A stretch of 22,602 bases of DNA from a virus. The notes under the pieces were generated by a model. It saw only the letters and a program-made list of their open reading frames with translations. It ran no database searches and was not told the origin of the DNA. Shown here piece after piece: positions 6,574 to 22,602 of the stretch (positions within the stretch are counted from its first letter, which is position 1; every line of letters begins with the position of its first letter). The position numbers and the translations under genes were made by a program. Where the stretch lies: positions 1 to 22,602 of IMG/VR virus record IMGVR_UViG_3300010354_000724; one strand, written 5' to 3'.

Positions 6574-7014
6574 ATGGCCATACAAAGATTATATGAAAAA
6601 TTAGTAGTTAAGGGCAATACCCCTAAGGATCTGCCACCACTACCTAGAACTTATAGAGGGTTTAGTACTATAAGTGAGGACAGTGAAAACTATAGTTTGT
6701 ATGATCTAGGACTAATTAAACAGGATTTAATCAATCATTTTCACATAAGACAGGGCGAAAAACTCAGTGATCCCACATTTGGTACCATAATTTGGGACTG
6801 TATTTTTGAACCAATGACTGAAGATCTAAAGGAACTTATAGTAAAAGACGTAGAAAGAATTATAAACTTTGATCCAAGAGTTACAGCAAAAGATGTAGTA
6901 ATAACAGCCTATGAATCAGGTATTCAAATTGAATGTGAACTTACTTATTTGCCCTATAACGTAAGTGAAGTACTACGCTTTAGATTTGATCAAAGTGCAG
7001 GGTTAACCAGTTAA
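6574..7014 (+). CDS. 25: gp25-like baseplate wedge subunit
   Basis: A 146-residue member of the GPW/gp25 family, slightly longer than T4 gp25 (about 132). It is a conserved core of contractile baseplates that joins gp6 and gp53 at the sheath attachment point. Family features seen are YRGFSTISED (27-36), a helix DLGLIKQDLINHFHIRQGE (44-62), SDPTFGTIIWDCIFEP (65-80) and a C-terminal strand pair around IQIECELTYLP. The start lies eight bases after the gp5 stop, and no Shine-Dalgarno sequence is visible before it. Translation probably depends on ribosomes finishing gp5. The classic EPR triplet of T6SS TssE relatives is represented only by FEP at 78-80. Confidence 0.9.
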   Translation: MAIQRLYEKLVVKGNTPKDLPPLPRTYRGFSTISEDSENYSLYDLGLIKQDLINHFHIRQGEKLSDPTFGTIIWDCIFEPMTEDLKELIVKDVERIINFDPRVTAKDVVITAYESGIQIECELTYLPYNVSEVLRFRFDQSAGLTS

Positions 7015-7060: not shown

Positions 7061-10000
7061 ATGTCATCTACTGATAGACAAAATAGGTTACTGGTAGCCG
7101 AGGACTGGCGTAGAATATATCAAAGTTTCCGTAATGCAGACTTTCAAAGTTATGACTTTGAAAATTTGCGTAGGGTAATGATTGATTATCTTAGACAAAA
7201 TTATCCAGAAGATTTTAATGATTATATAGAAAGCAGTGAATATCTAGCCCTAATAGATATGATTGCTTTTTTAGGACAAAGTATAGCATTCCGTGTTGAC
7301 CTTAATGCTAGAGAAAACTTTTTAGAATTAGCAGAGCGCAGAGAAAGTATACTGCGTCTGGCACGTACTCTAAGTTACAATGCCAAACGTAATAAAGCAG
7401 CCAACGGATTACTTAAATGGCAAAGTGTTACAACTACACAAACTATAGTCGATAGTAATGGTAGAAATTTAGCAGGACAAGAAATACTGTGGAATGACCC
7501 CAGTAATAATGAATGGTATGATCAATTTATACGTGTGATTAATGCTGCTATGCCTATTACAGCACAATTTGGCAGTCCAAATAACAAGGCTGTAGTCTAT
7601 AGTATACCAACTGAACAATATCGTTTACAAACTACTGGTGGAACTATTCCTGTATTTGGATTTAACAAAATCATAGATGGTAGAAGTATGAATTTTGAAA
7701 TCACTAGCACTATGATCAAGGATGGTAAAGATATTGTAGAAGACCCTCCTATTAGTGGTAACAATCTCAGTTTCATTTATAGAGATGATGGTAGAGGTGC
7801 TGCCAGTAATGCTAATGGATTTTTTAGTCATTTTAGACAAGGTACTCTACAAACAGGTACATTTACTATATCACAACCAAGTACAAATGAAATTATTGAT
7901 ATTGATGCTATAAACATTAATGATACTGATGTATGGTTATACAAAGTAGACTCAAGAGGCATAGAAAATGAGTACTGGATACAAGTACCTAACTTTGAAG
8001 CCAATAATGTAATCTATAATAGTTTAGATAAAAATTTAAGAAATATATACAGCGTAGTAACTAGAGTTAATGATAGAATTAGCATTGCATTTAGTGATGG
8101 AACATTTGGTAGTTTACCATTAGGTAATTTTAGAATATATTATAGAACTAGCAACGCATTAAGTTATACAATTAATCCAAAAGATATGCGTAGCGTTAGT
8201 GTAGAAATTCCTTATTATTCAAATACAGGTCAAATTGAATTACTAAGCATTACAATGAATTTACAAAATTCAATTAGTAATAGTTCTGGACCAGAAAGCA
8301 ATGAACAAATTAAATTAAAAGCACCTAGTACATATTATACTCAAAATAGAATGATTACAGCAGAGGATTATAATCTTAGTCCGCTTAGTGTAGATCAAGA
8401 TGTACTTAAGGTCAAAGCAATTAATCGTAGTAGTAGTGGTATTAGTAGATATTTTGACCTAATTGACCCAACAGGAAAATACAGTAGTACAAATTTATTT
8501 TCAGATGATGGTGTAATATATAAAGAAGAATACGAAGATACAGACAAATTTAGTTATAGTACTACAGTTGATATTGAAGGAATAATTACAAATCAAATAT
8601 TACCATCATTAAAAGATATTAATATACGCAATTTTTTCTATGATAAGTTTAGTAGAATACGTATTGGTAGTGATCTAACTTATAAATGGGTACAAAAAAC
8701 GTCCAGTACAAACGAATCAACAGGTTATCTTGTAGATGCCAGTGATGAAATAGTTGGTTATGATGTAACTACAATTTTAAGAAATTTAGAAGTTGGCGCT
8801 TTATTAAAATTTGTAGCACCAACAGGCAAGTACTTTATTAAAAATATGGGTAATAAGTTAGAATTAACCAGTGAAAATACACCATATGCCAGTGATTATG
8901 TTTGGGCCAAAGTTGTAAGTATAAGTGAAAATGGTGCTGTGACAGAGTTAGATGATGGTAGTGGTCCTATTACTCTTAGTGCTGAAATACCTTCAACAAG
9001 TTTATTAAATCAAATTATACCTAGTTGGAGAACTAGTTTAGAATCTAATATAGTTACTACTATGGTAAATTTAATATTTTCCAACAAACCTTTTGGATTA
9101 AGATATGATATCACAACAAAAACATGGAAAATTATATTTGAACTTGATTTAAATGTTAGCAGTAATTTTAATGTAGGTAAAGCAGGGGATACAACTAATC
9201 AAAAGTTAGATGCAAGTTGGTTGCTATTATTTACTGTAGATACAGACGTAGGCTTTTATACAGTAAAATCTAGGAAACTCAGATACGTATTCGAAAGTGA
9301 AAAGAAAATTAGGTTTTATTTCGACAGTTCTAATAGAGTTTTTGATACTAGATCAAATACAGTCATTAAAGATTTAGTTAAAATTCTAGGAATTAACACA
9401 AGACCAAATGCTATTATACCTTTTAATTATGATTTAGAATGGGAAATAACTAACGAGTTTATTGGCACAGATGGTTATATAGATACTAAAAAAATAGAAT
9501 TAAGTTTTAGTGACACTAATGATGACGGTGTTGTAGATGATCCAGATATATTTGATTTAGTTACAATTCCTTATTATACTACTTGGGATATTAGTGTAAC
9601 TTATAAATTAAATGAATTTGTAACCTACAACAATAACATTTATAAATCTTTAGCCAACAACAATTTAGGTTATACGCCTAATACCTTAAACAGTGTAGAT
9701 AAATGGCAAATATTCTATGGCAATTATATTGTGCTTGAAAAATATGAAACACAAACAGGTCAATTTGATTATAGATATGTACAAAACTTAAAAACAGACT
9801 TAACACCTTTAGTTATTATAGTTGGATCAATAAACACTGTAAGCACTGGTGTTGATTCACAATATTATTATTTTATTGATATTAATTCAGTGGCACGTTG
9901 GAGTGATAGTGAAGGCAGATTCATTTTTAATTTAGACTATAAAGTATTTTTAGGTAGATCTATTCTTAAATTTCAATATGTACATAGTGCAGATTATGAA

Positions 10001-10642
10001 ACACGTATTGATCCTGGACAAATTAATATAATTGACCTATATGTATTAACTAGAAATTATGATCTTGAGTTTAGAAGATGGTTAGCAGGTGCTTTAGATA
10101 CAGAACCTATGCCACCTAGCAGTGATCAATTAAACATTACAATGTCACCGTTCCTAAATCCAATTAAGGCAATGAGTGATGAAGTAATTTATCATTCAGT
10201 AAAATACAAAGTTCTATTTGGTCCCAAAGCCAGTTCAAATCTACGTGCTATATTTAAAATTATTAAAAATCCTGAACAAACAATTAGCGATAACGAAATT
10301 AAAAGTAGAGTACTTGCAGCCATAAATGAATTTTTTACTGTAGAAAATTGGGATTTTGGAGATAGTTTTTATTTTAGTGAGTTGGTTGCATATGTTATGA
10401 ATAGAACAGCACCATATTTGGTTAATATTGTTATAGTACCAAGACAAAACAATCTGTATTTTGGTAGTTTATTTGAAATTAAGAGCGAGAGTGATCAGAT
10501 TTTTATTAATGGTGCTACCAGTGATGACATTGAAGTAATAGATGCGCTAACAGCAAGTCAATTAAACGCACAAGGTATGATTGCTGATACATCTAATATT
10601 GTAAGTCAACAACGTATTATCAGCGGATTAGGAAACTACTAA
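7061..10642 (+). CDS. 6: gp6-like baseplate wedge protein, enlarged (1193 aa)
   Basis: This protein should form the wedge ring that holds the baseplate together. The N-terminal 130 residues are the clearest part: AEDWRRIYQSFRNADFQSYD, then YLALIDMIAFLGQSIAFRVD, and ENFLELAERRESILRLARTL, the helical start of T4 gp6 and J-type proteins. The C-terminal quarter has KYKVLFGPKASSNLRAIFKI, INEFFTVENWDFGDSFYFSE and VNIVIVPRQ, as in gp6/baseplate J cores. T4 gp6 is about 660 residues, so roughly 500 residues are inserted between them. That insert holds an EF-hand-like loop, DTNDDGVVDDPD (818-829), and a short aromatic module (about 842-884). GAGGA (7050-7054) supports the ATG. Its stop overlaps the start of the next gene by one base. 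Composition is more AT-rich than in genes 48 and 5. Confidence 0.87.
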   Translation: MSSTDRQNRLLVAEDWRRIYQSFRNADFQSYDFENLRRVMIDYLRQNYPEDFNDYIESSEYLALIDMIAFLGQSIAFRVDLNARENFLELAERRESILRLARTLSYNAKRNKAANGLLKWQSVTTTQTIVDSNGRNLAGQEILWNDPSNNEWYDQFIRVINAAMPITAQFGSPNNKAVVYSIPTEQYRLQTTGGTIPVFGFNKIIDGRSMNFEITSTMIKDGKDIVEDPPISGNNLSFIYRDDGRGAASNANGFFSHFRQGTLQTGTFTISQPSTNEIIDIDAININDTDVWLYKVDSRGIENEYWIQVPNFEANNVIYNSLDKNLRNIYSVVTRVNDRISIAFSDGTFGSLPLGNFRIYYRTSNALSYTINPKDMRSVSVEIPYYSNTGQIELLSITMNLQNSISNSSGPESNEQIKLKAPSTYYTQNRMITAEDYNLSPLSVDQDVLKVKAINRSSSGISRYFDLIDPTGKYSSTNLFSDDGVIYKEEYEDTDKFSYSTTVDIEGIITNQILPSLKDINIRNFFYDKFSRIRIGSDLTYKWVQKTSSTNESTGYLVDASDEIVGYDVTTILRNLEVGALLKFVAPTGKYFIKNMGNKLELTSENTPYASDYVWAKVVSISENGAVTELDDGSGPITLSAEIPSTSLLNQIIPSWRTSLESNIVTTMVNLIFSNKPFGLRYDITTKTWKIIFELDLNVSSNFNVGKAGDTTNQKLDASWLLLFTVDTDVGFYTVKSRKLRYVFESEKKIRFYFDSSNRVFDTRSNTVIKDLVKILGINTRPNAIIPFNYDLEWEITNEFIGTDGYIDTKKIELSFSDTNDDGVVDDPDIFDLVTIPYYTTWDISVTYKLNEFVTYNNNIYKSLANNNLGYTPNTLNSVDKWQIFYGNYIVLEKYETQTGQFDYRYVQNLKTDLTPLVIIVGSINTVSTGVDSQYYYFIDINSVARWSDSEGRFIFNLDYKVFLGRSILKFQYVHSADYETRIDPGQINIIDLYVLTRNYDLEFRRWLAGALDTEPMPPSSDQLNITMSPFLNPIKAMSDEVIYHSVKYKVLFGPKASSNLRAIFKIIKNPEQTISDNEIKSRVLAAINEFFTVENWDFGDSFYFSELVAYVMNRTAPYLVNIVIVPRQNNLYFGSLFEIKSESDQIFINGATSDDIEVIDALTASQLNAQGMIADTSNIVSQQRIISGLGNY
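9512..9547 (+). other. EF-hand/dockerin-like calcium-binding loop within gp6
   Basis: The twelve residues DTNDDGVVDDPD match the D-x-[DN]-x-D-G-x-[IV]-x-x-x-[DE] calcium loop with Asp/Asn at positions 1, 3, 5 and 12 and Gly at 6. Seen directly; calcium binding is inferred, and no partner loop was noticed. Confidence 0.45.
9584..9712 (+). other. short aromatic carbohydrate-binding-like or SH3-like module in gp6
   Basis: Residues about 842-884 run W-x9-YKLNEFVTYNNNIYKSLANN, then GYTP and a closing W. This is the spacing of small chitin-binding-type (CBM5/12-like) modules: W, Y..G/N..V.Y....Y.S, W. Three similar segments occur in the giant protein downstream. Confidence 0.45.
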
Positions 10643-13600
10643 TGGCAGATCAAGAAGAATTAGGCGTTCCATTAGACAGCAACGAGAAAAGAAAATCTGA
10701 AAAGTTTATTCCAAGATTTTTTAGAAGTGACTCTAATAAAAAGTTTCTTGCAAGTACTGTTGATACTCTAATACAAAATGGTACCGTAAGACGTCTTAAT
10801 GGTTATATTGGTAGGCAAAATGCAAAATCTGTTACAGCAAATGATGTATTTTTAGAAGCACCGCTTAAAGATAGACAAAATTATCAACTAGAACCCAGTT
10901 TAATCTGTGAAGATAAACTAGGCAATGTAAGTTATTTTAAAGATTACATAGATTATATTAACATTATTAATGTTTTAGGTGGTGATGCAACTAATCATCA
11001 AAAACTAAATCAACAGGAATTTTATAGTTGGGAACCACATATTGATTGGGATAAAGTTGTTAACTATCTACAATATTATTGGTTACCTTTTGGTCCAGAA
11101 ACAATACCAGTTAGTGGAACTAAAGTACTTAATACAGTTAGCACATACACAGTAACTACAGTAGACGAAGGTGATAACTTTGCTTATTTGTTTAGTCCTG
11201 ATGGATTAACTAGAAATCCTATAATAAAATTGTACAGAGGTGAAACATACAAGTTTGATATTAGAGCACTAAATGATCCTTTTAGTATTAAAACTGAAAG
11301 AGTTACTGGAACAGAATATAGATATACTGATGGTGTAGATAAATCAGCAGTTAAACAAGATATATTAACATTTACAGTTCCATTTGATGCACCTGATGTA
11401 TTATACTATGTTAGTGAAAATAATGTAGATACTAGTGGTATTATTAAAATATTTGATATTATTGAAAATACTAAAATCAATGTTGAAGAAGAAGTTATCG
11501 GTAAGAAAAACTTTACACTAGCCAATGGCATAACACTTACTAACGGAATGAAAATACGTTTTGTAGGTCAAGTTATACCAAAAAGTTATGAAGATGAAGT
11601 ATTTTATGTTGAGGGTGTAGGAGAATCTATACAGTTAGTTAACGAACGTACACTGGAAATTGCAGCAACTTATACTGAAAATTACAATGTTAATTATGAT
11701 GGTAGCGGATTTGATCAACTTGCATTCAACAATGTAAATTATGCAGCACTTAAAAAAGATTACATAACAATTAATAGATCAAGTAGAGATAGAAATCATT
11801 GGAGTAGATATAATAGATGGTTTCATCAAGATGTAATCGTTAAGACTGCACAAATATTAGGCAATCAACCAGTATTTGATCAAAGTCAACGTGCAATAAG
11901 ACCTATTATTGAATTTAAACCAAACATAAGATTATTTAATTTTGGAAATTATTCTAAGAAAAATGTAGACCTAATTGATAATTCTACATTAGATGCGTTT
12001 AGTATAGTAGAAGGAGCATTAGGTTATTATGTTGATGGTGTTGAATTAGTTAATGGACATAGAGTTATTTTTAATGCTGATACAGATATTTTAGTAAAAA
12101 ACAAAATATACAAAGTAGAATTCGTTAATTTATACGATGAATCTACAGGACAAGAAACACGCCGCATACATTTAGCAGAAGAGCCTGACTCAAATCCTGT
12201 ATTAGATGAAACTGTGTTAGTTATGTTAGGTAACGAATATACAGGGCAAATGTTTTGGTTTAATGGTGAAAATTGGGTTTTTGCACAAGAAAAAACAGGA
12301 TTAAATCAATGTCCTTTATTTGATTTATTTGATGATGAAGGAGTTAGTTTAAGTGATACTTCAAAATATGAAGGATCTAATTTTAAAGGCAATAAACTAT
12401 TTTCCTATAAACAAAATATAGGAACTGCGGATAAAGAATTAGGATTTGCGCTAACATACAAAAATATTAATAATATAGGTGATATTCTTTTTGAATTTAA
12501 TTTAACAAATGATGTTTTTAGTTACAAATATGAAACTGATATTAAAGAAGAATCTACAGATAACAAGTTCCTCAAAGTATATTCTAATGTGGGAGAAGAA
12601 AGATTAGTTAATGGTTGGACACATTGTAATGTGCAAAATGTACAACCTATAGTAAGAATTTTTAAGCAAGAATACACAACAATTAGCAATACTAAAAAAC
12701 AAATTCTAAATAATTTTCCTGTAGATGTTTATGATGATAAGGATGATTTAGCAGATTTAGTTGTAAAAGTTTACATAAATGGTATTAGATTAGATAAAAA
12801 TAAATTCAATATAATATACGGATCTAATTATCCAGTTGTGGAATTGGATAATGATATTGGCGAAAATGACATATTAACATTAAGATGTTATGCTAAACAA
12901 GTTAAAAATCAAAATGGTTATTACGAGTTTCCAATAAACTTTCAAAATAATCCAGAAAATAATAATATTAAAAACTTTACACTAGGTGAAATTATTGATC
13001 ATGTAGATAGTATTGTAGATAATTTACCTATATTTGAAGGTGTGTATCCAGGTACAAGTAACTTACGTGATATAAGCAATCTAAGTACATTTGGTACTAA
13101 ATTTGTACAACATAGTGGTAGTATTAATCTTGCTTTGTATCATTTAACTAGTAAAAATGCCAACATAATAAATGCAATAGATAAAGCACGAGATGATTAT
13201 GGTAAATTCAAACGTGCCTTTATCTACAATACAAATATAGTTGAACAAGGAATGTCAACTAAATTGGCTGTAGACTTAGTTTTACAAAAAGTAAATGAAG
13301 GTAAACCTAAACAAAGTCCCTATTACTTTAGTGATATGTTGGGCTATGGTGCTTGTACAAGATTTGATTTTATAGTAAAAGATTCTAAAACTAGAAAATA
13401 TCCTCTTACAAATGTATTTTCATTAAAAGAACTATCTCCAAAATGTATTAATGTATACTTAAATGACATACAATTACTACATGAAATAGATTATGTGTTT
13501 ACTAATGATGGATTTTTAGATATAATTAAATCTAAACAAGAAAATGATACAATTAGTGTATACGAGTATGAAAAAACTGATGGATGCTTTATACCACCAA

Positions 13601-16600
13601 CTCCAACTAGTTTAGGCTTGTATCCTAAATACCAACCAAAAATATATATTGACACTACGCTTATTGAACCTCAACCAGTAATACAAGGTCATGATGGCAG
13701 TATAATTTTAGCATTTGGTGATTTTAGAGATGATCTTATACTAGAATTAGAAAAAAGAATTTTTAATAACATAAAATGTTCTTATGATCCTAAGATTTTT
13801 GACATTTATGATTATATTCCTGGAGCAAATAGAACTACGACCTATAGTTTAGATGAATTTAACAAAATACTAGCCCCAAACTTTTTTAAATGGACTAGTT
13901 TAATTGATGTTGACTTTACTAAATCCTTATTGTTTTTAAGTAATAATGCATTTACCTACAACTATAGTGATATCAGTAGTTTTGATAATACAAAATTATT
14001 AGGATTTTGGCGTGGTATATACAAATGGTATTTTGACACAGATCGTGTGCATATTTGTCCTTGGGAAAGTTTAGGTTTTACTATAGAACCTAAATGGTGG
14101 CAAAGTGTTTATGGTCCGCCGCCATATACCAGTAATAATCTAATACTTTGGAATGACCTTAAAGATGGTATTATAAGAGAACCTAATAAGCCTATAATAG
14201 TACATCCTAAATTTATTAGACCTGTATTTGAAAATATCCCAGTAAATGAACTAGGACAATTAGTTGATCCTGTAGCAGCAAATCTTGCTACAGGATTGTT
14301 TAATGTAAAAACTGATAAAGGATATGTGTTTGGAGATCAAGGTCCAGTTGAAAATACTTGGCGCCGTAGCAGTTACTATCCATTCAGTTTAATTAAAACT
14401 ATATTACTAATGAGTCCTAATAGAGCATTTGCTACTCTATTTGATAGATCTAGAATTATTAGAAATAGTTCTAATCAACTTGTATATGCATCAACTGGAC
14501 TTAGAATTAAATTTAAAGATATTGTAACTACCAGTGTGTTTAGTGATACTAGACGTGTTCAAACATCGGGATTAGTTAATTATTTGATGGACTATTTGGT
14601 CAGTGATAACCTTATTAGTGTAAATGAATATAGATATGATTTACAAAATTTAACAAACAAACTTAGTCATAGACTTGGTGGCTTCACTAGTATTGATAAA
14701 TTTAATTTAATCTTAGACAGTAAAAGTGCCAGTGCTACTTCTGGAGTATTTGTACCAAAAGAAAATTATAAATTATTTTTAAATTCTAGTACGCCAATTA
14801 AGAAATTATTCTATAGTGGCGTTATTATAACAAAACTATTGACACGATATGGGTTAGGATATGAAATAAAAGGATATAGTCAAACTGAGCCTTATTTTTA
14901 TTATTATCCTTGGGGCAAACCTGGATATAATATTAATGTAGGTGGTATAAGTGAATCCTACATAACTTGGCAAAGTGGACAAAGATATCTTTCAGGTAAT
15001 ATTGTTAAAATTGACAATCAGTATTTTAGAGTTAAAGTAGCACATACTAGTAGTACAAGTCCTAGTTATGACTTACTATCAAAATTGCCAGCGTTACCAA
15101 TGGTGGGTGGCAGAGATGCTAATCTACGTTCTTTGTTTACAAAAACACCAAAAATATTAAATTATGGAACTATATTAACCACTATTCAAGAAGTGGTTGA
15201 TTTTTTACAGGGTTATGGAGAATACTTAAAAGATCAAGGATTTGAATTTGACGAATTTAATTCTACTTTAAAAACTGTAACTAACTGGGAAACAAGTATA
15301 CGTGAATTTTTATTTTGGACCACTCAAAATTGGAGTTCAGGATCAGATACTTATGTAGAATGGGAGTCAAATACCAAATACGATGAAGGTGATATAGTTT
15401 ATTATAACGGAGACTTTTTTAAGAGTACAAGAGATCATACCAGTAGCACATTTTTTGACGTTAATTTTTATGTCAAAATGGACAGTTTAAACACAGATGG
15501 TGCTGCTGCTATAAGTTTGAGTCCTGCTGCTTTAAAAATAAATCTAAAACTTGACTATTCTATTGTCGATGACCTAAGAGAAACTAATAACTTTTATGAA
15601 ATATTTGCAGCAGATGGAACAAAATACGATCCGCAACTATTAAATTACGTTAGATATAATGATACATTTAGTTTATATCCAAAAAATGAAGTAGGTATAT
15701 ATGGTGCTGCAATTTATTTGGTACAAAAAGAGCATGTTCTTTTAATAGATAATACTAGTCAATTTAATGATATTATCTATAATTTAGAGACTGGTTATCG
15801 TCAAGAAAAGATCAAAATATCAGGATACAAAACAATAAATTGGAATGGTAGTTTTGATGCCCCTGGATTTATATATGATCAAGCCATAATAAAAGAGTGG
15901 ACTCCATGGACTGATTATAGTTTAGGGGACATAGTTAAGTACAAAGAATTTTATTATACTGCTAATCAAGTTATTCCAGGTGTAGAAACTTTTGATGACA
16001 ATAATTGGATTAAAATAGAAAACAAGCCTGAATCTAGACTATTACCTAATTGGGATTATAAAGCCTTACAATTTACAGACTTTTATGATTTAGACAGTGA
16101 TAATTTTGATATAGATCAGCAACGTATAGCACAGCATTTAATTGGATATCAAAAAAGAAAATATTTAGAAAATATTATTAGAAATGATGTCAGTGAGTTT
16201 AAGTTCTATCAAGGTATGATCACTGAAAAAGGCACTATAAACTCATTGAATAAACTGTTTGATGTATTAAGCAGTAGTGAACAAGATAGTGTAGATTTTG
16301 TAGAAGAATGGGCTGTTCGTGTTGCTCAATATGGAGCCAGTGATGCTTTTGAGGAAATTGAGTTCAACTTAGATGAAGCATTATTTAGAATAGAACCTCA
16401 GGCTATAGAACTAGTACCAACTATAGATAACAGTATTACTGATTACATTATTAGGCAAACAAAAAATGATTTATATGTTAGACCTAGAAATTATGCAGAC
16501 AATATTTGGCCTATTAATAATAATTACAGACCCTTCCTAAAAACTCCAGGATTTGTTAGGCTAGATCAAGTAAAAATCGCAGTAGATAAGAAAGATGATA

Positions 16601-19600
16601 TAAAAAATTATACTACAGATCAATTATTACCTGGTGATTATATTTGGTGTGGGTTTGAAGTCAAAATTAACGAGTTTAAAGATGATTGGTCTGTGTACAG
16701 AGTAAATCATTTAGATGTTAATGTTGTAAATGCTGTTATTACTAATAATATTTTAAATATAACTTACAATATTAATCCAAAAATATCAGCGGGAGACTTA
16801 GTAGGATTTAGTTCAAGCCAATCTGCAATTAATAAGTTTTTTACTGTTAGTCAAGTAGATGGTAAAACTATAAAAATAAACGGACCTATAGTAGGCTTAA
16901 TACTAAACACGTTAAACCTAACAAGTGTTAAAACTTATAAAATAGCACCATACAGATTTGAAAATATTGACAATCTTATTGTACCAAAATATCTAAACAA
17001 GGTAACAGAAACTAATCCTTATGGTGAAATAGTTTGGTTTAATAATAATTACAAACAGCAAATTTGGCAAAATATTCCTATATATGCACCCACTGAATTT
17101 AGTGATTCAATATTCGCAAACGGTTCTAGGTTTGGTAAGCAGGTATGTATAAGCAAAGATGGCACAGTGTTATTAGGCTCATCTAATAATGAAGTAAGAG
17201 TTTACAGAAAATTTAGTGATACTGTTTGGGTTAAAGATCAAGTTATAGAATTTTCAATAGCAACTAATTTTGGTAAATCCTTAGCAATATCTGAAGATAA
17301 TGAATACATTGCTATAGGTTGTAATGTTAACAATAATGGTGTTGTAAGAATTTACAAATTAGACTTGGATGATGCTTATCAATTTGCTAATTCATTAATT
17401 AATCCGGAAGAAGTAAGTCTAGGAGTACCAATACAAGATCAATTTTATGGATACAAATTAAGATTTAGTAAAAATCTAACATCATATAGTTTATTTGTCA
17501 GTAGTACAAATGGTGTAAGCATTAGTGGTAAGATTTATATCTATAATAAAAATTCTGCTTGGGATATTTTTGATAGACTTGAACCCAGTGACTGTGATGA
17601 GGAACCCTATGCTTATGATTTTGATGTAAATGATAATGGAAGTATTCTTGTACTAAGTGCCTGTCTAAATGATGGTGGCAAAGTTTATGTATTTGAAAGA
17701 AAGTCAGACCATTATAATCGTCAACAAATTTTAGATTTACCAGGTAAAACTGAAAGATTTGGCTTTGCAATGAGTCTAAGTGCAACAGGACGATTATTGG
17801 CAGTGTCTAGTACCTATGAAACTATTGATTATACTAATCAAGGTCGTGTTAGAATATACCAAACACAAAATGCACTGGATGATTCCACAGTACCACCAGT
17901 AAATTATACATTATTACAAACAATAGATAATAGAAATGCCGAAGCAGATGAAGTGTTGGGTGAACAATACGGGTATTTCTTAAAGTTTGCTAATAATGAA
18001 CGTACACTTGTTGTATTCAGTAAGTATGGTGATAGTTATAAGGATGCTCTAGTAGGTGAGGACTCAAGCAGAATTAATAGAGATAGTGGGCGTGTAGACA
18101 TATATGATCAATACCTAACAAAGTTTATATTCTCAGAATCAATTCCAACAGATAAAAATACAGAAGAATATGGATTTAGTTTTGATGCTTGTGATAATCA
18201 TGTAGTAATAGGTGCACCAAATGCACAGTTTGGTCAGTACAATTCAGGTAAGATTTATGTATACAATAAACCTAACAATGAATTTACTTGGAAATTATAT
18301 TTAGAAGAACAACCAAAAATAGATATAAATGTATTTAAAAAAATATTTTTATACAATAAAAAAACTAGTAAATTAATATCCTATTTTGACATAATTGATC
18401 CAGTACAGGGTAAAATTGCAGGTGTTGCAGATGAAGAAATAAAGTATAAAACATACTATGATCCTGCTATCTATAATATTAAGGCTGCAAATACTAACCT
18501 AAAAGTTAATGTAGATAATGGTATGAACTGGTTAGAAAAACAAGTTGGAACTTTATGGTGGGATCTACGACGTGCTAAGTTCTTAGATAGCACAATGGGT
18601 AATACCACATTTAGGAATAGTACTTGGAACAGTCTATTCCCAACAAGTAGCATTGATATTTGTGAATGGGTAGAATCAAAATTTACACCAGATCAATGGG
18701 ATCAATTGTCAGGCACCGAGGAAGGTTTTGCCAGAGGTATTAATGGTAATACACTATACGGTAATAAAGTTTACAGTCAAAAAAGAAAGTTTGATACTAT
18801 AAGCAAAACTTATAGTAATTTATACTATTTTTGGGTTAAAAATAGAACTACTGTTCCTAATGTAAGTGGTAGAAAAACAAATATAATAGACATTATAGGT
18901 CAAATTACTGATCCTAAAAATTATGGTATAAAATTTATACAATTTTTAAGCCCAAATGCACTAGGTCTTGCCAATGCTAGTAATATTTTAGTTGATAAAG
19001 ACATAGTTTTAAGCATTCAGTATTGGACAGTACCTGAAAAAGAAAAACTTTTAATCCATAATGAATGGAAAATTATTAATGAAAATGAAAAAACTGAATT
19101 ACCTGTAGATATTGAAAGAAAATGGGTTGACAGTTTAATAGGTATAGATGAAAATGGGTATACAGTTCCAGACCTTACACTAAGTCCAAAACAGCGTTAT
19201 GGGATTGAATTTAAGCCTAGACAAAGTATGTTTATTAATAGAATTGAGGCATTAAAACAATTCATTGAAAGATTTAACTATGAAGTTAAAGATATACAAA
19301 TAGATAATATTGATCTCAGTGATTTACTTAAAAAAGATGAACCACCAAACATACTATTAGGTGAATATGACTATGCTATAGATACAGAAGAAGAACTAAA
19401 ATTTATTACAGGTGAATCACATAGACAAGCAGTACTAACACCTATTATACTTAATGGTAGAATTATAGATGTACAAATTAATACTGCTGGCGCTAATTAT
19501 AAAGTTGCTCCTATAATAAAAGTATCAGGAAACGGTACTGGTGCTATTATAAAAGCAACAATCAATAGTGCAGGATCTATTAATTCGGTCACGGTTAAAG

Positions 19601-22600
19601 AACCAGGTAAAGGGTACGATATTACAAGCACAAATCTTGTTGTTAGGCCATTAACTGTATTGGTAAGAACAAATAATCTTGGTGTATGGTCATTATTTGC
19701 CTACACATCTTCTAGTAAAACTTGGTTTAAAATTAAAAGCCAAGAATATGATGTAACTAAATTTTGGTATTATATTGATTGGTATAGTCTAGGTTATAAT
19801 GAATTTAGTAGAGTTGATTATATTGTTAATGGTATATATGAACTATTTACATTAGAGGCGGAGATTGGCCAAACTGTAAAAGTTAAAAATACTGGCGGGG
19901 ATTGGTTATTACTTGAAAAATATAGTGATATTGTCAGTATTGATTATACTAGAACCTATAAAGTAGTAGGTCGTCAAAATGGTAGTTTACAACTGAGCAA
20001 TAAATTTTTCAATTTTACCGATAGTAGATTAGGTTTTGATGGATCTTTGTATGACTCTAATGTGTACGATGGTGTTGGAAGTATTGAATTACGCATAATT
20101 TTAAATAGTTTAAAAAATAAAATTTTAATTGATGATCGTAGAAAAATATATCTTAGACTGTTTTTTGTCACTGTAAAATATGTATTAACTGAGCAACTAT
20201 TTGTAGATTGGGTTTTTAAGACTAGTTTTGTAAAGGCTCTACATAATGTTGGTCCATTACGTCAAAAAATAAACTATAATAATGATAGTTTGCCAGATTT
20301 TGAAAGTTATATTAAAGAAGTCAAACCATATAGAACTAAAATTAGAGAATTTACCAGTATCTATAATAATATAGAAAATAGCCAAAGTCTTGTAACAGAT
20401 TTCGATCTTCCTTCTTACGTTGACAACTATAAAATTCAAACACTAAGTACATCATTTGATAATGAATTATATGTTAACAATACACGTATAGTTGAACAAC
20501 AACCTTGGAAACAATGGAAAGATAATTTAGGATTTAGTGTAACAGAAATTGTTATTAGTGATTCAGGTGACGGGTACTTAACTATACCCAAAATCGAGTT
20601 TGAAGGTCCTTGCATAAGACCAGCCAAAGCCAAAGCCTATATAGTTAGAGGAAAATTAGTACAAATTGATATTTTAGATAGCGGAGAAGGATATTTTAAT
20701 CCACCTAAAATAAAAATTAATAGCAATATAACTAAAGAAGGTAAAATAGCCAAAGCGCACAGCGTTATTGGAAATAATTTAATTAGATCAAATAAAATTG
20801 CTATGAAGTTTGATCGTTATCTCAAAGGTAAACTTAATGAAATTAACCCAATAACTGGTAAATTTAAATTTGAGGAAGACAATCCTTTAACTATAGAAGA
20901 TACTTTTGCAGGAACTGGTAGTCAAAATACATTTACACTTAGGTATAAACCTAATCAAAAAGCAAATACAATCACAGTAAAAGTTAATCAACAAGAACTT
21001 ATTGTTGGTACCTATACCATTGAACCTAAAACTAAACAGGATAAAGGTTTTACAGAACACTATGCTAACCTAGTTTTTGTAGACCCTCCTACTAGCGGTA
21101 GTGTAATAAGTATAAAATATCAAAAAGATTTTGTACATCTTAACGCATTAGAAAGAATCTACTACTATTATGATCCAGAATCTGGTATGATAGGTCGTGA
21201 TTTTAATCAATTAATGACAGGCATAGACTACGGTGGTGTTAATGTTATAGGCGTTGGCTTTGAAAAACCTAATAGTTGGGATGATGGAATATACAGTTGG
21301 GCTGAAAAACCTTGGGACGCAGGTATACCTACTGATGATGAAATATATGATACTATCATAGACGCAGGTAATTTAAACACTAACAGTGCTTATAGAACTG
21401 CCAGCGGACTTAATGCAGATGATATTATAATTGATGGTGATGGATTTGTAACACCAACTACAAGTCCTGCACCAGAGGAAATGCTACCAGGACATGTTGT
21501 AGACAGTGTGGCTATTACAGTATTTGAAAGAAGTTTAACAACAAGTTCAGACATAGTATCAAACAATTATCTAGCAGACGGCACAGTTAGTTCATTTAAA
21601 ATTAATCAATATCCTAATAATAAAAATGCTATAATTGTAAAGTTAGGAACCACAATACTTAAACCTAATGTTGATTATGACTTTGACTATGATAATCTTA
21701 CAGTAATTACTAAGACTCCACCTCCTGCTGGAGTAATTGTTAGTATTACTGGGTTAGGATTTAACGGTGAGAATTTATTAGCCACTGATTATAGAATTAT
21801 TACCAGTGAAACTACAGAAATTTACACAGATTTAGATTGGCAAGAAAATATTGTGGCTTATACATTAGTATCTGGTGATATCAGTAATAATATTCTATTT
21901 AAAACTGAAGGTGATAATGTAGTAAACAATAAAGTCGGCATAAGATTTCCAGTAATATTAAACCCTGGACAAGTTGTCAACTTTTCATTATTTTTAGGCA
22001 GTACTCTAAACCAAAGTCTTGTTAGTAGAGAATACTTAATTACTGATGGAACAAGCCTAAAATATTATTTGAAAAATCCTGTAGGTAAGAGAATACCTTT
22101 AGACCCAAATACATTGGTAAGAGTTGCTGACACTATTCTTAACACTATAGACGCTTTTAGATATACATTAACGAATAATAATTTAGTATACGATATTCCA
22201 GCAGGTAAAGCAGATATTGACACATATTCATTAAACGATTATGTTGTTTATATTGATGGTAAAAAAGCAGAATTAAGCATAGGTTATACATTAGACTTAA
22301 TTAATTCTAAACTTAATATTCAAACTGCCTATTATAAGAACAATGCTGAAGTTATTGTTACTATTACTAAAGATGCTGACTATTTTATTGATACTGATAG
22401 TGGTGGAACTTACTTATTATTTAGGAATTTATACCCAGCAGGCACAGAAGTTGAAGTTATCAGTATGTACAATCATGATATTTTAGGTATTGAGAGAAAA
22501 TATTATATAGTTGAACCAAAATTAAACAACTTTTTTAACAGTATCTACTATCTAAATCTTGTACAAATTAGTGCTGGTATATTTTCTTTTGACAGAGAAG

Positions 22601-22602
22601 TA
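10642..22602 (+). CDS. giant baseplate wedge-like structural protein (at least 3987 aa), 3' end outside window
   Basis: One frame is open from ATG 10642 to the last base: 3987 codons with no stop on full reading. The ATG overlaps the gene 6 stop by one base, with AGGA (10630-10633) eight bases upstream. The position after 25-6 is that of T4 gene 7, a wedge protein of about 1032 residues, so this is at least four times longer. Landmarks: FIPRFFRSD and VRRLNGYIGRQN (22-59), QCPLFDLFDDEG (about 557), IQGHDGSIILAFGDFRDD (1014-1031), three aromatic modules (1443-1478, 1574-1613, 1753-1793), RIAQHLIGYQKRKYLENII (1828-1846), a seven-fold propeller repeat (2164-2556), VGTLWWDLRRAKF (2635-2647), GxGY motifs (2944-3003, 3300-3362), DRRKIYLRLFFVTVKYVLTE (3166-3185) and a C-terminal set of beta repeats. 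No signal peptide, membrane segment or protease motif was noticed. A structural role follows from the operon; gp7 identity is inferred from position. Confidence 0.8.
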   Translation, partial: MADQEELGVPLDSNEKRKSEKFIPRFFRSDSNKKFLASTVDTLIQNGTVRRLNGYIGRQNAKSVTANDVFLEAPLKDRQNYQLEPSLICEDKLGNVSYFKDYIDYINIINVLGGDATNHQKLNQQEFYSWEPHIDWDKVVNYLQYYWLPFGPETIPVSGTKVLNTVSTYTVTTVDEGDNFAYLFSPDGLTRNPIIKLYRGETYKFDIRALNDPFSIKTERVTGTEYRYTDGVDKSAVKQDILTFTVPFDAPDVLYYVSENNVDTSGIIKIFDIIENTKINVEEEVIGKKNFTLANGITLTNGMKIRFVGQVIPKSYEDEVFYVEGVGESIQLVNERTLEIAATYTENYNVNYDGSGFDQLAFNNVNYAALKKDYITINRSSRDRNHWSRYNRWFHQDVIVKTAQILGNQPVFDQSQRAIRPIIEFKPNIRLFNFGNYSKKNVDLIDNSTLDAFSIVEGALGYYVDGVELVNGHRVIFNADTDILVKNKIYKVEFVNLYDESTGQETRRIHLAEEPDSNPVLDETVLVMLGNEYTGQMFWFNGENWVFAQEKTGLNQCPLFDLFDDEGVSLSDTSKYEGSNFKGNKLFSYKQNIGTADKELGFALTYKNINNIGDILFEFNLTNDVFSYKYETDIKEESTDNKFLKVYSNVGEERLVNGWTHCNVQNVQPIVRIFKQEYTTISNTKKQILNNFPVDVYDDKDDLADLVVKVYINGIRLDKNKFNIIYGSNYPVVELDNDIGENDILTLRCYAKQVKNQNGYYEFPINFQNNPENNNIKNFTLGEIIDHVDSIVDNLPIFEGVYPGTSNLRDISNLSTFGTKFVQHSGSINLALYHLTSKNANIINAIDKARDDYGKFKRAFIYNTNIVEQGMSTKLAVDLVLQKVNEGKPKQSPYYFSDMLGYGACTRFDFIVKDSKTRKYPLTNVFSLKELSPKCINVYLNDIQLLHEIDYVFTNDGFLDIIKSKQENDTISVYEYEKTDGCFIPPTPTSLGLYPKYQPKIYIDTTLIEPQPVIQGHDGSIILAFGDFRDDLILELEKRIFNNIKCSYDPKIFDIYDYIPGANRTTTYSLDEFNKILAPNFFKWTSLIDVDFTKSLLFLSNNAFTYNYSDISSFDNTKLLGFWRGIYKWYFDTDRVHICPWESLGFTIEPKWWQSVYGPPPYTSNNLILWNDLKDGIIREPNKPIIVHPKFIRPVFENIPVNELGQLVDPVAANLATGLFNVKTDKGYVFGDQGPVENTWRRSSYYPFSLIKTILLMSPNRAFATLFDRSRIIRNSSNQLVYASTGLRIKFKDIVTTSVFSDTRRVQTSGLVNYLMDYLVSDNLISVNEYRYDLQNLTNKLSHRLGGFTSIDKFNLILDSKSASATSGVFVPKENYKLFLNSSTPIKKLFYSGVIITKLLTRYGLGYEIKGYSQTEPYFYYYPWGKPGYNINVGGISESYITWQSGQRYLSGNIVKIDNQYFRVKVAHTSSTSPSYDLLSKLPALPMVGGRDANLRSLFTKTPKILNYGTILTTIQEVVDFLQGYGEYLKDQGFEFDEFNSTLKTVTNWETSIREFLFWTTQNWSSGSDTYVEWESNTKYDEGDIVYYNGDFFKSTRDHTSSTFFDVNFYVKMDSLNTDGAAAISLSPAALKINLKLDYSIVDDLRETNNFYEIFAADGTKYDPQLLNYVRYNDTFSLYPKNEVGIYGAAIYLVQKEHVLLIDNTSQFNDIIYNLETGYRQEKIKISGYKTINWNGSFDAPGFIYDQAIIKEWTPWTDYSLGDIVKYKEFYYTANQVIPGVETFDDNNWIKIENKPESRLLPNWDYKALQFTDFYDLDSDNFDIDQQRIAQHLIGYQKRKYLENIIRNDVSEFKFYQGMITEKGTINSLNKLFDVLSSSEQDSVDFVEEWAVRVAQYGASDAFEEIEFNLDEALFRIEPQAIELVPTIDNSITDYIIRQTKNDLYVRPRNYADNIWPINNNYRPFLKTPGFVRLDQVKIAVDKKDDIKNYTTDQLLPGDYIWCGFEVKINEFKDDWSVYRVNHLDVNVVNAVITNNILNITYNINPKISAGDLVGFSSSQSAINKFFTVSQVDGKTIKINGPIVGLILNTLNLTSVKTYKIAPYRFENIDNLIVPKYLNKVTETNPYGEIVWFNNNYKQQIWQNIPIYAPTEFSDSIFANGSRFGKQVCISKDGTVLLGSSNNEVRVYRKFSDTVWVKDQVIEFSIATNFGKSLAISEDNEYIAIGCNVNNNGVVRIYKLDLDDAYQFANSLINPEEVSLGVPIQDQFYGYKLRFSKNLTSYSLFVSSTNGVSISGKIYIYNKNSAWDIFDRLEPSDCDEEPYAYDFDVNDNGSILVLSACLNDGGKVYVFERKSDHYNRQQILDLPGKTERFGFAMSLSATGRLLAVSSTYETIDYTNQGRVRIYQTQNALDDSTVPPVNYTLLQTIDNRNAEADEVLGEQYGYFLKFANNERTLVVFSKYGDSYKDALVGEDSSRINRDSGRVDIYDQYLTKFIFSESIPTDKNTEEYGFSFDACDNHVVIGAPNAQFGQYNSGKIYVYNKPNNEFTWKLYLEEQPKIDINVFKKIFLYNKKTSKLISYFDIIDPVQGKIAGVADEEIKYKTYYDPAIYNIKAANTNLKVNVDNGMNWLEKQVGTLWWDLRRAKFLDSTMGNTTFRNSTWNSLFPTSSIDICEWVESKFTPDQWDQLSGTEEGFARGINGNTLYGNKVYSQKRKFDTISKTYSNLYYFWVKNRTTVPNVSGRKTNIIDIIGQITDPKNYGIKFIQFLSPNALGLANASNILVDKDIVLSIQYWTVPEKEKLLIHNEWKIINENEKTELPVDIERKWVDSLIGIDENGYTVPDLTLSPKQRYGIEFKPRQSMFINRIEALKQFIERFNYEVKDIQIDNIDLSDLLKKDEPPNILLGEYDYAIDTEEELKFITGESHRQAVLTPIILNGRIIDVQINTAGANYKVAPIIKVSGNGTGAIIKATINSAGSINSVTVKEPGKGYDITSTNLVVRPLTVLVRTNNLGVWSLFAYTSSSKTWFKIKSQEYDVTKFWYYIDWYSLGYNEFSRVDYIVNGIYELFTLEAEIGQTVKVKNTGGDWLLLEKYSDIVSIDYTRTYKVVGRQNGSLQLSNKFFNFTDSRLGFDGSLYDSNVYDGVGSIELRIILNSLKNKILIDDRRKIYLRLFFVTVKYVLTEQLFVDWVFKTSFVKALHNVGPLRQKINYNNDSLPDFESYIKEVKPYRTKIREFTSIYNNIENSQSLVTDFDLPSYVDNYKIQTLSTSFDNELYVNNTRIVEQQPWKQWKDNLGFSVTEIVISDSGDGYLTIPKIEFEGPCIRPAKAKAYIVRGKLVQIDILDSGEGYFNPPKIKINSNITKEGKIAKAHSVIGNNLIRSNKIAMKFDRYLKGKLNEINPITGKFKFEEDNPLTIEDTFAGTGSQNTFTLRYKPNQKANTITVKVNQQELIVGTYTIEPKTKQDKGFTEHYANLVFVDPPTSGSVISIKYQKDFVHLNALERIYYYYDPESGMIGRDFNQLMTGIDYGGVNVIGVGFEKPNSWDDGIYSWAEKPWDAGIPTDDEIYDTIIDAGNLNTNSAYRTASGLNADDIIIDGDGFVTPTTSPAPEEMLPGHVVDSVAITVFERSLTTSSDIVSNNYLADGTVSSFKINQYPNNKNAIIVKLGTTILKPNVDYDFDYDNLTVITKTPPPAGVIVSITGLGFNGENLLATDYRIITSETTEIYTDLDWQENIVAYTLVSGDISNNILFKTEGDNVVNNKVGIRFPVILNPGQVVNFSLFLGSTLNQSLVSREYLITDGTSLKYYLKNPVGKRIPLDPNTLVRVADTILNTIDAFRYTLTNNNLVYDIPAGKADIDTYSLNDYVVYIDGKKAELSIGYTLDLINSKLNIQTAYYKNNAEVIVTITKDADYFIDTDSGGTYLLFRNLYPAGTEVEVISMYNHDILGIERKYYIVEPKLNNFFNSIYYLNLVQISAGIFSFDREV
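14968..15075 (+). repeat. aromatic module copy 1 in the giant protein
   Basis: Residues 1443-1478: W-Q-S-G-Q-R-Y-L-S-G-N-I-V-K-I, then NQYFRVKVAHTSS. It shares the W...Y..G..V......Y/F pattern with copies 2 and 3 and with the gp6 module. Here the later aromatic shelf is weaker. Confidence 0.4.
15361..15480 (+). repeat. aromatic module copy 2 in the giant protein
   Basis: Residues 1574-1613: W then TKYDEGDIVYYNGDFFKSTR and a closing FDVNFYVKM. This is the best match to the CBM5/12-like or SH3-like module pattern Y..GDIV.Y.G.F(Y).S. Confidence 0.5.
15898..16020 (+). repeat. aromatic module copy 3 in the giant protein
   Basis: Residues 1753-1793: W-T-P-W, TDYSLGDIVKYKEFYYTANQ and DDNNWIKIE. 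Three Trp and several Tyr residues sit at positions that line binding faces in such modules; binding is inferred. Confidence 0.5.
17131..18309 (+). repeat. seven tandem FG-GAP-like blades: predicted seven-bladed beta-propeller
   Basis: Seven repeats begin at residues 2164, 2210, 2269, 2323, 2373, 2443 and 2510, that is FGKQ, FGKS, YGYK, YAYD, FGFA, YGYF and YGFS. Each opens with [FY]-[GA]-x and continues with a hydrophobic strand. Each closes with a [GV]-x-[IV]-x-[IV]-[YF] strand: VRVYRK, VVRIYK, GKIYIY, GKVYVF, GRVRIY, GRVDIY, GKIYVY. The last blade keeps the diagnostic V-I-G-A-P-N core. Repeat lengths are 46-70 residues. The seven-fold count fits a closed propeller such as integrin alpha or related FG-GAP proteins. 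I recall a propeller in T4 gp7 as well, which would agree with the gene position. Ligand and calcium binding cannot be judged. Confidence 0.72.
19471..19650 (+). repeat. GxGY-type strand motif pair 1 in the giant protein
   Basis: Residues 2944-3003 contain two successive units: VQINTAGANYKVAPIIKVSG, then SVTVKEPGKGYDITSTNLVV. The form is V-x-[IV]-x5-G-x-[GN]-Y-x3-P-x-[IV]-x-[IV], a short strand-turn-strand repeat. Confidence 0.55.
20539..20727 (+). repeat. GxGY-type strand motif pair 2 in the giant protein
   Basis: Residues 3300-3362: VTEIVISDSGDGYLTIPKIE, then VQIDILDSGEGYFNPPKIKI. This pair matches the motif better than pair 1 and lies about 300 residues further on, the two pairs flanking the conserved DRRKIYLRLFF segment. 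Confidence 0.6.
20911..22383 (+). repeat. C-terminal beta-sandwich-like repeats in the giant protein
   Basis: At least three units share [FY]-x-[LI]....-I-x-V-x-[VL]-[NG]-x2-L/I-x4-DY/TY and a later PP-x-[SA]-G-x-[VI]-I-x-I strand. They start near residues 3424 (TFTLRYKPNQ), 3644 (SSFKINQYPN) and 3868 (YVVYIDGKKA). The conserved YYYYDPESGMIGRDFNQLM segment lies between the first two at about 3507-3525. Shorter relatives occur earlier at about 709-753 and 935-979. Boundaries are approximate. Confidence 0.45.

Follow-up and report, generated by a model that had tools for sequence, protein, structure and literature searches.

An FG-GAP-type beta-propeller, predicted to be seven-bladed, at a module site in the giant baseplate-wedge-associated protein of uncultured jumbo phages

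Binding modules are known in core baseplate proteins. The wedge protein Gp119 of Vp4 carries CBMs and binds cells; Gp177, a homologue that lacks CBMs, does not bind them (PMC11406892). In siphophages, the inserts of 'evolved' Dit proteins (PMC7291167) restore or promote adsorption (PMC10688798). In both cases, a conserved baseplate protein has, in some phages, an internal site at which additional modules for host binding are inserted. The T4 wedge protein gp7, encoded after gp6, carries gp9 and gp10 (PMC3004832). Integrin-alpha propellers of the FG-GAP or FG-GAP_2 (PF14312) type have seven repeats, each with an FG opening and a G-x-V-x-V-Y closing, and the integrin alpha-I domain provides a case of a whole domain inserted into a propeller loop. 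No paper in the literature searched connects FG-GAP, phage and baseplate.

The locus described here resembles each of these systems in part. It has the arrangement of Gp119 and evolved Dit in another protein family; the inserts there are CBMs with demonstrated binding, whereas here the module is a propeller that accepts CBM5/12-like inserts, for which we infer binding. With T4 gp7 it has in common the gene position after gp6 and the wedge setting, but sequence homology is undetectable and the protein exceeds 4000 aa, compared with 1032 aa for gp7. The repeats and their motifs are those of the FG-GAP type, and whole domains are inserted into propeller loops as in integrins, but calcium loops are nearly absent, a single blade passes the Pfam cut-off, and the propeller is embedded in a tail protein of more than 4000 aa. 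The giant proteins of RaK2-like, PA5oct-like and Atu_ph07-like phages are the product of the same gene, with the same neighbours and the same chassis on both sides of the site, but in the cultured members the site lacks the propeller.

The DNA analysed, hereafter the window, is a virus fragment of 22.6 kb from IMG/VR. On its plus strand it encodes, in order, a 343-aa structural protein, a gp53-like wedge protein, an 835-aa structural protein, a gp5-type hub, a gp25-type baseplate wedge protein (6574..7014), a gp6 homologue from the baseplate wedge (7061..10642; phrog_10646, 1193 aa) and, immediately downstream, a giant ORF of 3987+ aa (10642..22602) that is open at the contig end. Complete environmental relatives of this protein range from 4254 to 5131 aa. 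A divergent ORF lies on the minus strand at 207-1028, a position at which PA5oct has a late-transcription sigma factor. The giant ORF matches phrog_10938, a 'virion structural protein' of jumbo phages such as PA5oct, RaK2, Atu_ph07 and SCTP-2, whose gene comes after a gp6-type wedge gene; membership is indicated by sequence homology over the full length together with the gp25-gp6-giant order. According to the PA5oct annotation, the homologue was detected as a virion protein by mass spectrometry. A further virion-detected homologue is probably phAPEC6 gp245, a 382-kDa protein listed beside the wedge protein gp244 (PMC7247149). The best explanation of the window's giant ORF is that it encodes a virion protein associated with the wedge, the phage being an uncultured jumbo myovirus; the protein's place in the virion is suggested by synteny and mass spectrometry of relatives, and its location in the baseplate by gene order. 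Within the protein, Pfam recognises a CBM5/12 (chitin-binding type 3) module in three places, at residues 1443, 1574 and 1753 (14968..16000, plus strand). A variable domain, partly common to RaK2 and PA5oct (residues 1926-2161; 16417..17124, plus strand), leads into the propeller, which is directly followed by a conserved chassis domain (residues 2557-2889; 18310..19306, plus strand) found in all family members, including RaK2, PA5oct and Atu_ph07.

The propeller comprises residues 2162-2556 (nucleotides 17125-18309); an earlier note on this DNA had placed it at 17131-18309, correct to within a few bases. All blades are on the plus strand: blade 1 (residues 2162-2204; 17125..17253), blade 2 (2208-2256; 17263..17409), with its B-C loop after residue 2229, blade 3 (2266-2318; 17437..17595), with its C-D loop after residue 2305, blade 4 (2320-2368; 17599..17745), blade 5 (2371-2432; 17752..17937), blade 6 (2441-2503; 17962..18150), whose B-C loop is long in the window itself, and blade 7 (2508-2556; 18163..18309). 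An [FY][GA] opening occurs in all seven, at F2164, F2210, Y2269, Y2323 (Y-A), F2373, Y2443 and Y2510. The repeat motif first proposed holds for every opening, and its strict closing, G-x-[IV]-x-[IV]-[YF], occurs in six blades, with blade 1 ending in N-E-V-R-V-Y. Seven ordered opening/closing pairs are observed; 5000 residue shuffles gave 0-2 and stretches elsewhere in the giant protein 0-1, which bears out the in-register FG-GAP-like repeats that had been noticed in the sequence. When the propeller profile is compared with itself, off-diagonal alignments appear at whole-blade shifts with probabilities up to 99.3%, and several blade pairs match each other at 92-97%. Pfam FG-GAP_2 (PF14312) scores above cut-off on blade 7, the sole such blade in the window, and is matched by 8 of 11 relatives at E<=0.1. 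This, with the gp25 and gp6 neighbours, agrees with the FG-GAP kind and baseplate setting originally assigned. In calcium-binding FG-GAP propellers of the integrin type, several of the repeats have a D-x-[DN]-x-[DN]-G loop; here one possible loop is found among the seven blades, a D-x-N-x-N-G motif at residue 2328 in blade 4. A sequence search with the propeller against solved structures gave no significant match, the best being integrin alpha-6 at an E-value of 1.3.

Structure prediction points to the same blade count. AlphaFold2 with four relatives gives a pTM of 0.73, and a larger construct with 11 relatives has 28 strands in residues 2168-2556, equal to seven blades of four. Most blade strands have pLDDT values of 70-94, with a whole-construct mean of 63-66. 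Foldseek matches are mostly to seven-bladed propellers. Among the best 50 of about 700 matches are Sec12 (TMt 0.74), Swd1 (0.73), WIPI3 (0.72) and 6-phosphogluconolactonase (0.66), all of which we take to be seven-bladed propellers; the integrin alpha headpiece is at rank 45, and the T4 baseplate model 5IV5 is absent from these 50. Against BFVD, the matches are FG-GAP repeat proteins of phages and of large algal and amoebal viruses. A seven-bladed FG-GAP-type beta-propeller is thus the best explanation of residues 2162-2556, as modelled, and the ring is presumably closed because the model matches closed seven-bladed rings. Jumbo phages often have tail enzymes, and the presence of 6-phosphogluconolactonase among the seven-bladed matches might suggest that the propeller is itself an enzyme, glycosidase- or lyase-like, for instance, that degrades capsule or exopolysaccharide. 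We regard this as improbable, given that the propeller matches no Pfam enzyme family and no solved enzyme by sequence, and that its fold matches are mostly non-enzymatic scaffolds.

The length of the site, taken as the distance between flanking markers, was measured in 175 non-redundant members of the family, sampled as the best 80 loci per query, so that proportions are not frequencies in nature. The propeller is present in 135 of the 175, all of them IMG/VR environmental contigs, and absent from 40, including every cultured phage examined (RaK2-like, PA5oct, SCTP-2 and Atu_ph07). Its presence is all-or-none, both by blade profile (E<=2e-9 in the 135, E>=0.3 in the 40) and by hhalign (98.4-99.7% versus 0.1-0.4%). 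The markers are 211-217 aa apart in RaK2-like phages, the minimal state, 327 in PA5oct, 514 in SCTP-2, 1531-1539 in Phosso and Atu_ph07, and 602-1596 in propeller carriers. Some non-carriers have other modules at the site: Atu_ph07 and Phosso carry glycine-rich GxGY repeats there, the group of locus L131 has CBM5/12 plus repeats, and a LamG-like fold is tentatively assigned to SCTP-2 and L189, where the Pfam match is weak (E 0.03) and a PDB search returned no match. Two GxGY-type beta repeat modules, of the same kind as those expanded in Atu_ph07 and Phosso, are also found in the window's giant ORF at 19423-19609 and 20527-20725, the second matching phrog_22827. Like an 'evolved' baseplate protein, the family thus has a module that is present or absent among homologues at one internal site.

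In a tree of the conserved domain that follows the site, all 135 carriers fall on one side of a single branch (support 93), and propeller presence requires one change, compared with a mean of about 36 for shuffled labels. Gain, as opposed to loss in many lineages, is the direction indicated by midpoint rooting, with carriers nested beside PA5oct-like non-carriers. The best explanation is that the common ancestor of the clade gained the propeller once, at a fixed point of the chassis, and that no sampled member has lost it. A tblastn search of 50,697 deposited phage records returned no match to the propeller, although the chassis occurs in 57 such records; plasmids yielded none, and bacterial genomes no relative of the propeller.

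The earlier note had raised the possibility that the propeller is an ancestral T4 gp7 module retained in an expanded protein. The gp25-gp6-giant order does parallel the position of gp7 after gp6 in T4. However, profiles of six T4-type gp7 proteins match the giant family and the propeller at a probability of 0.3-0.4%, no better than a reversed control, while gp6, the positive control, is recognised in the same comparison, and sequence homology to gp7 is rejected on these grounds. Profile self-comparison also detects no internal repeats in T4 gp7. With every cultured family member examined lacking the propeller and a single gain in one clade, retention from a gp7-like ancestor is very unlikely, and that part of the original proposal finds no support.

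The loops of the propeller are expanded in many relatives. Insertions of at least 30 aa in 75 carriers number 55 in B-C loops, 53 in C-D loops, 22 in D-A loops and none in A-B turns, counted per sequence, such that related sequences enter separately and are not independent events. The main sites are the B-C loop of blade 2, with the largest inserts (up to 644 aa), and the C-D loop of blade 3, which is expanded in 46 of 74 relatives. Pfam finds CBM5/12 in 13 of 38 short inserts and in 5 of 7 long ones. To illustrate, blade 1 has a CBM5/12-like insert in L012, L013, L027 and L031, and blade 2 has a conserved B-C insert of 544-644 aa in L103, L093, L100, L076, L094, L102 and L097, which starts with CBM5/12 and beyond that start matches no family or structure. 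Profiles of the inserts match the chitin-binding domain of chitinase A1, chitin deacetylases, a phage tail spike (8fqc), All3316 and an F2 pyocin fibre. In the window itself, the loops of the propeller are compact and free of CBM inserts; the three CBM5/12 modules lie upstream instead.

With moderate confidence, we favour the reading that the propeller is a clade-defining platform for display and docking on the baseplate wedge, gained once. This reading rests in part on analogy, because binding modules in core baseplate proteins are known from Vp4 Gp119 and evolved Dit. The propeller would be a rigid platform at the edge of the baseplate, exposed on the surface, and its loops would present binding surfaces, in many relatives whole CBM5/12-like modules. 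Contact with the host would be of low affinity and in many copies, directed at surface polysaccharide either ahead of irreversible attachment or in the course of it, and the platform perhaps also seats the adjacent fibres. Since loops in many relatives have grown modules that resemble sugar-binding domains, the propeller probably helps the virus to hold its host. The CBM5/12-like modules and the neighbouring fibre both fit the docking hub or receptor-contact surface that the earlier note had envisaged.

Several observations weigh against display. The compact, CBM-free propeller of the window is one, and the lack of integrin-type calcium loops, with one possible exception, is another. CBM5/12-like folds in phage fibres could moreover be structural joints and not sugar binders; such modules are known in phage fibres and in All3316, and three lie within the chassis here. 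That the propeller was gained once and lost in none of the 135 members is more to be expected if it is a structural component than if it is a receptor domain exchanged freely, although it fits display and dock alike. The main rival is accordingly a purely structural dock, in which the propeller serves as an anchor for fibres, either short or collagen-like, or for a neighbouring wedge, and makes no contact with the host, much as T4 gp7 carries other baseplate proteins. In relatives, the gene after the giant one does encode a collagen-like fibre of very variable length (L004 15597-16973, L013 16782-17870, L011 15957-18641), and part of the fibre protein of L004 and L013 matches phrog_677, a family of wedge tail-fibre connectors. 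We consider such a dock possible but somewhat doubtful: loop lengths and inserts vary enormously among relatives, as a fixed interface between proteins would not usually do, which favours display, and conservation is lower in the propeller and the stretch before it than in most of the chassis (for instance, in L013, 39% for the propeller compared with 53-68% in most blocks).

Extending the display and docking reading, we tentatively suggest that, throughout this uncultured jumbo-phage clade, the integrin-like propeller embedded in the baseplate serves as an evolvable display head. Modules, chitin-binding-like and others, might be received by its loops, chiefly B-C of blade 2 and C-D of blade 3, and such insertions in the wedge itself may tune attachment alongside the tail fibres. 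By this account, the baseplate wedge of a large phage lineage without a deposited isolate bears an integrin-type propeller. Across jumbo phages, one position in the conserved giant tail protein emerges as a module site, with a propeller, a tentative lectin fold, glycine-rich repeats or nothing; therefore, a role of wedge proteins in jumbo-phage attachment, beside that of tail fibres, becomes testable, with concrete domains to express.

The gene upstream of the giant ORF has features of its own. The window's gp6 homologue, at 1193 aa compared with 660 aa for T4 gp6, contains a CBM5/12-like stretch at 9584-9730 (residues ~842-890) with weak matches to chitin-binding domains, and gp6 of Vibrio phage 2.275 is likewise annotated with CBM5/12. 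The gene that precedes the giant one in Salicola phage SCTP-2 (L016 494-9784) encodes 3096 aa, which suggests that the protein in the gp6 position may be enlarged there too.
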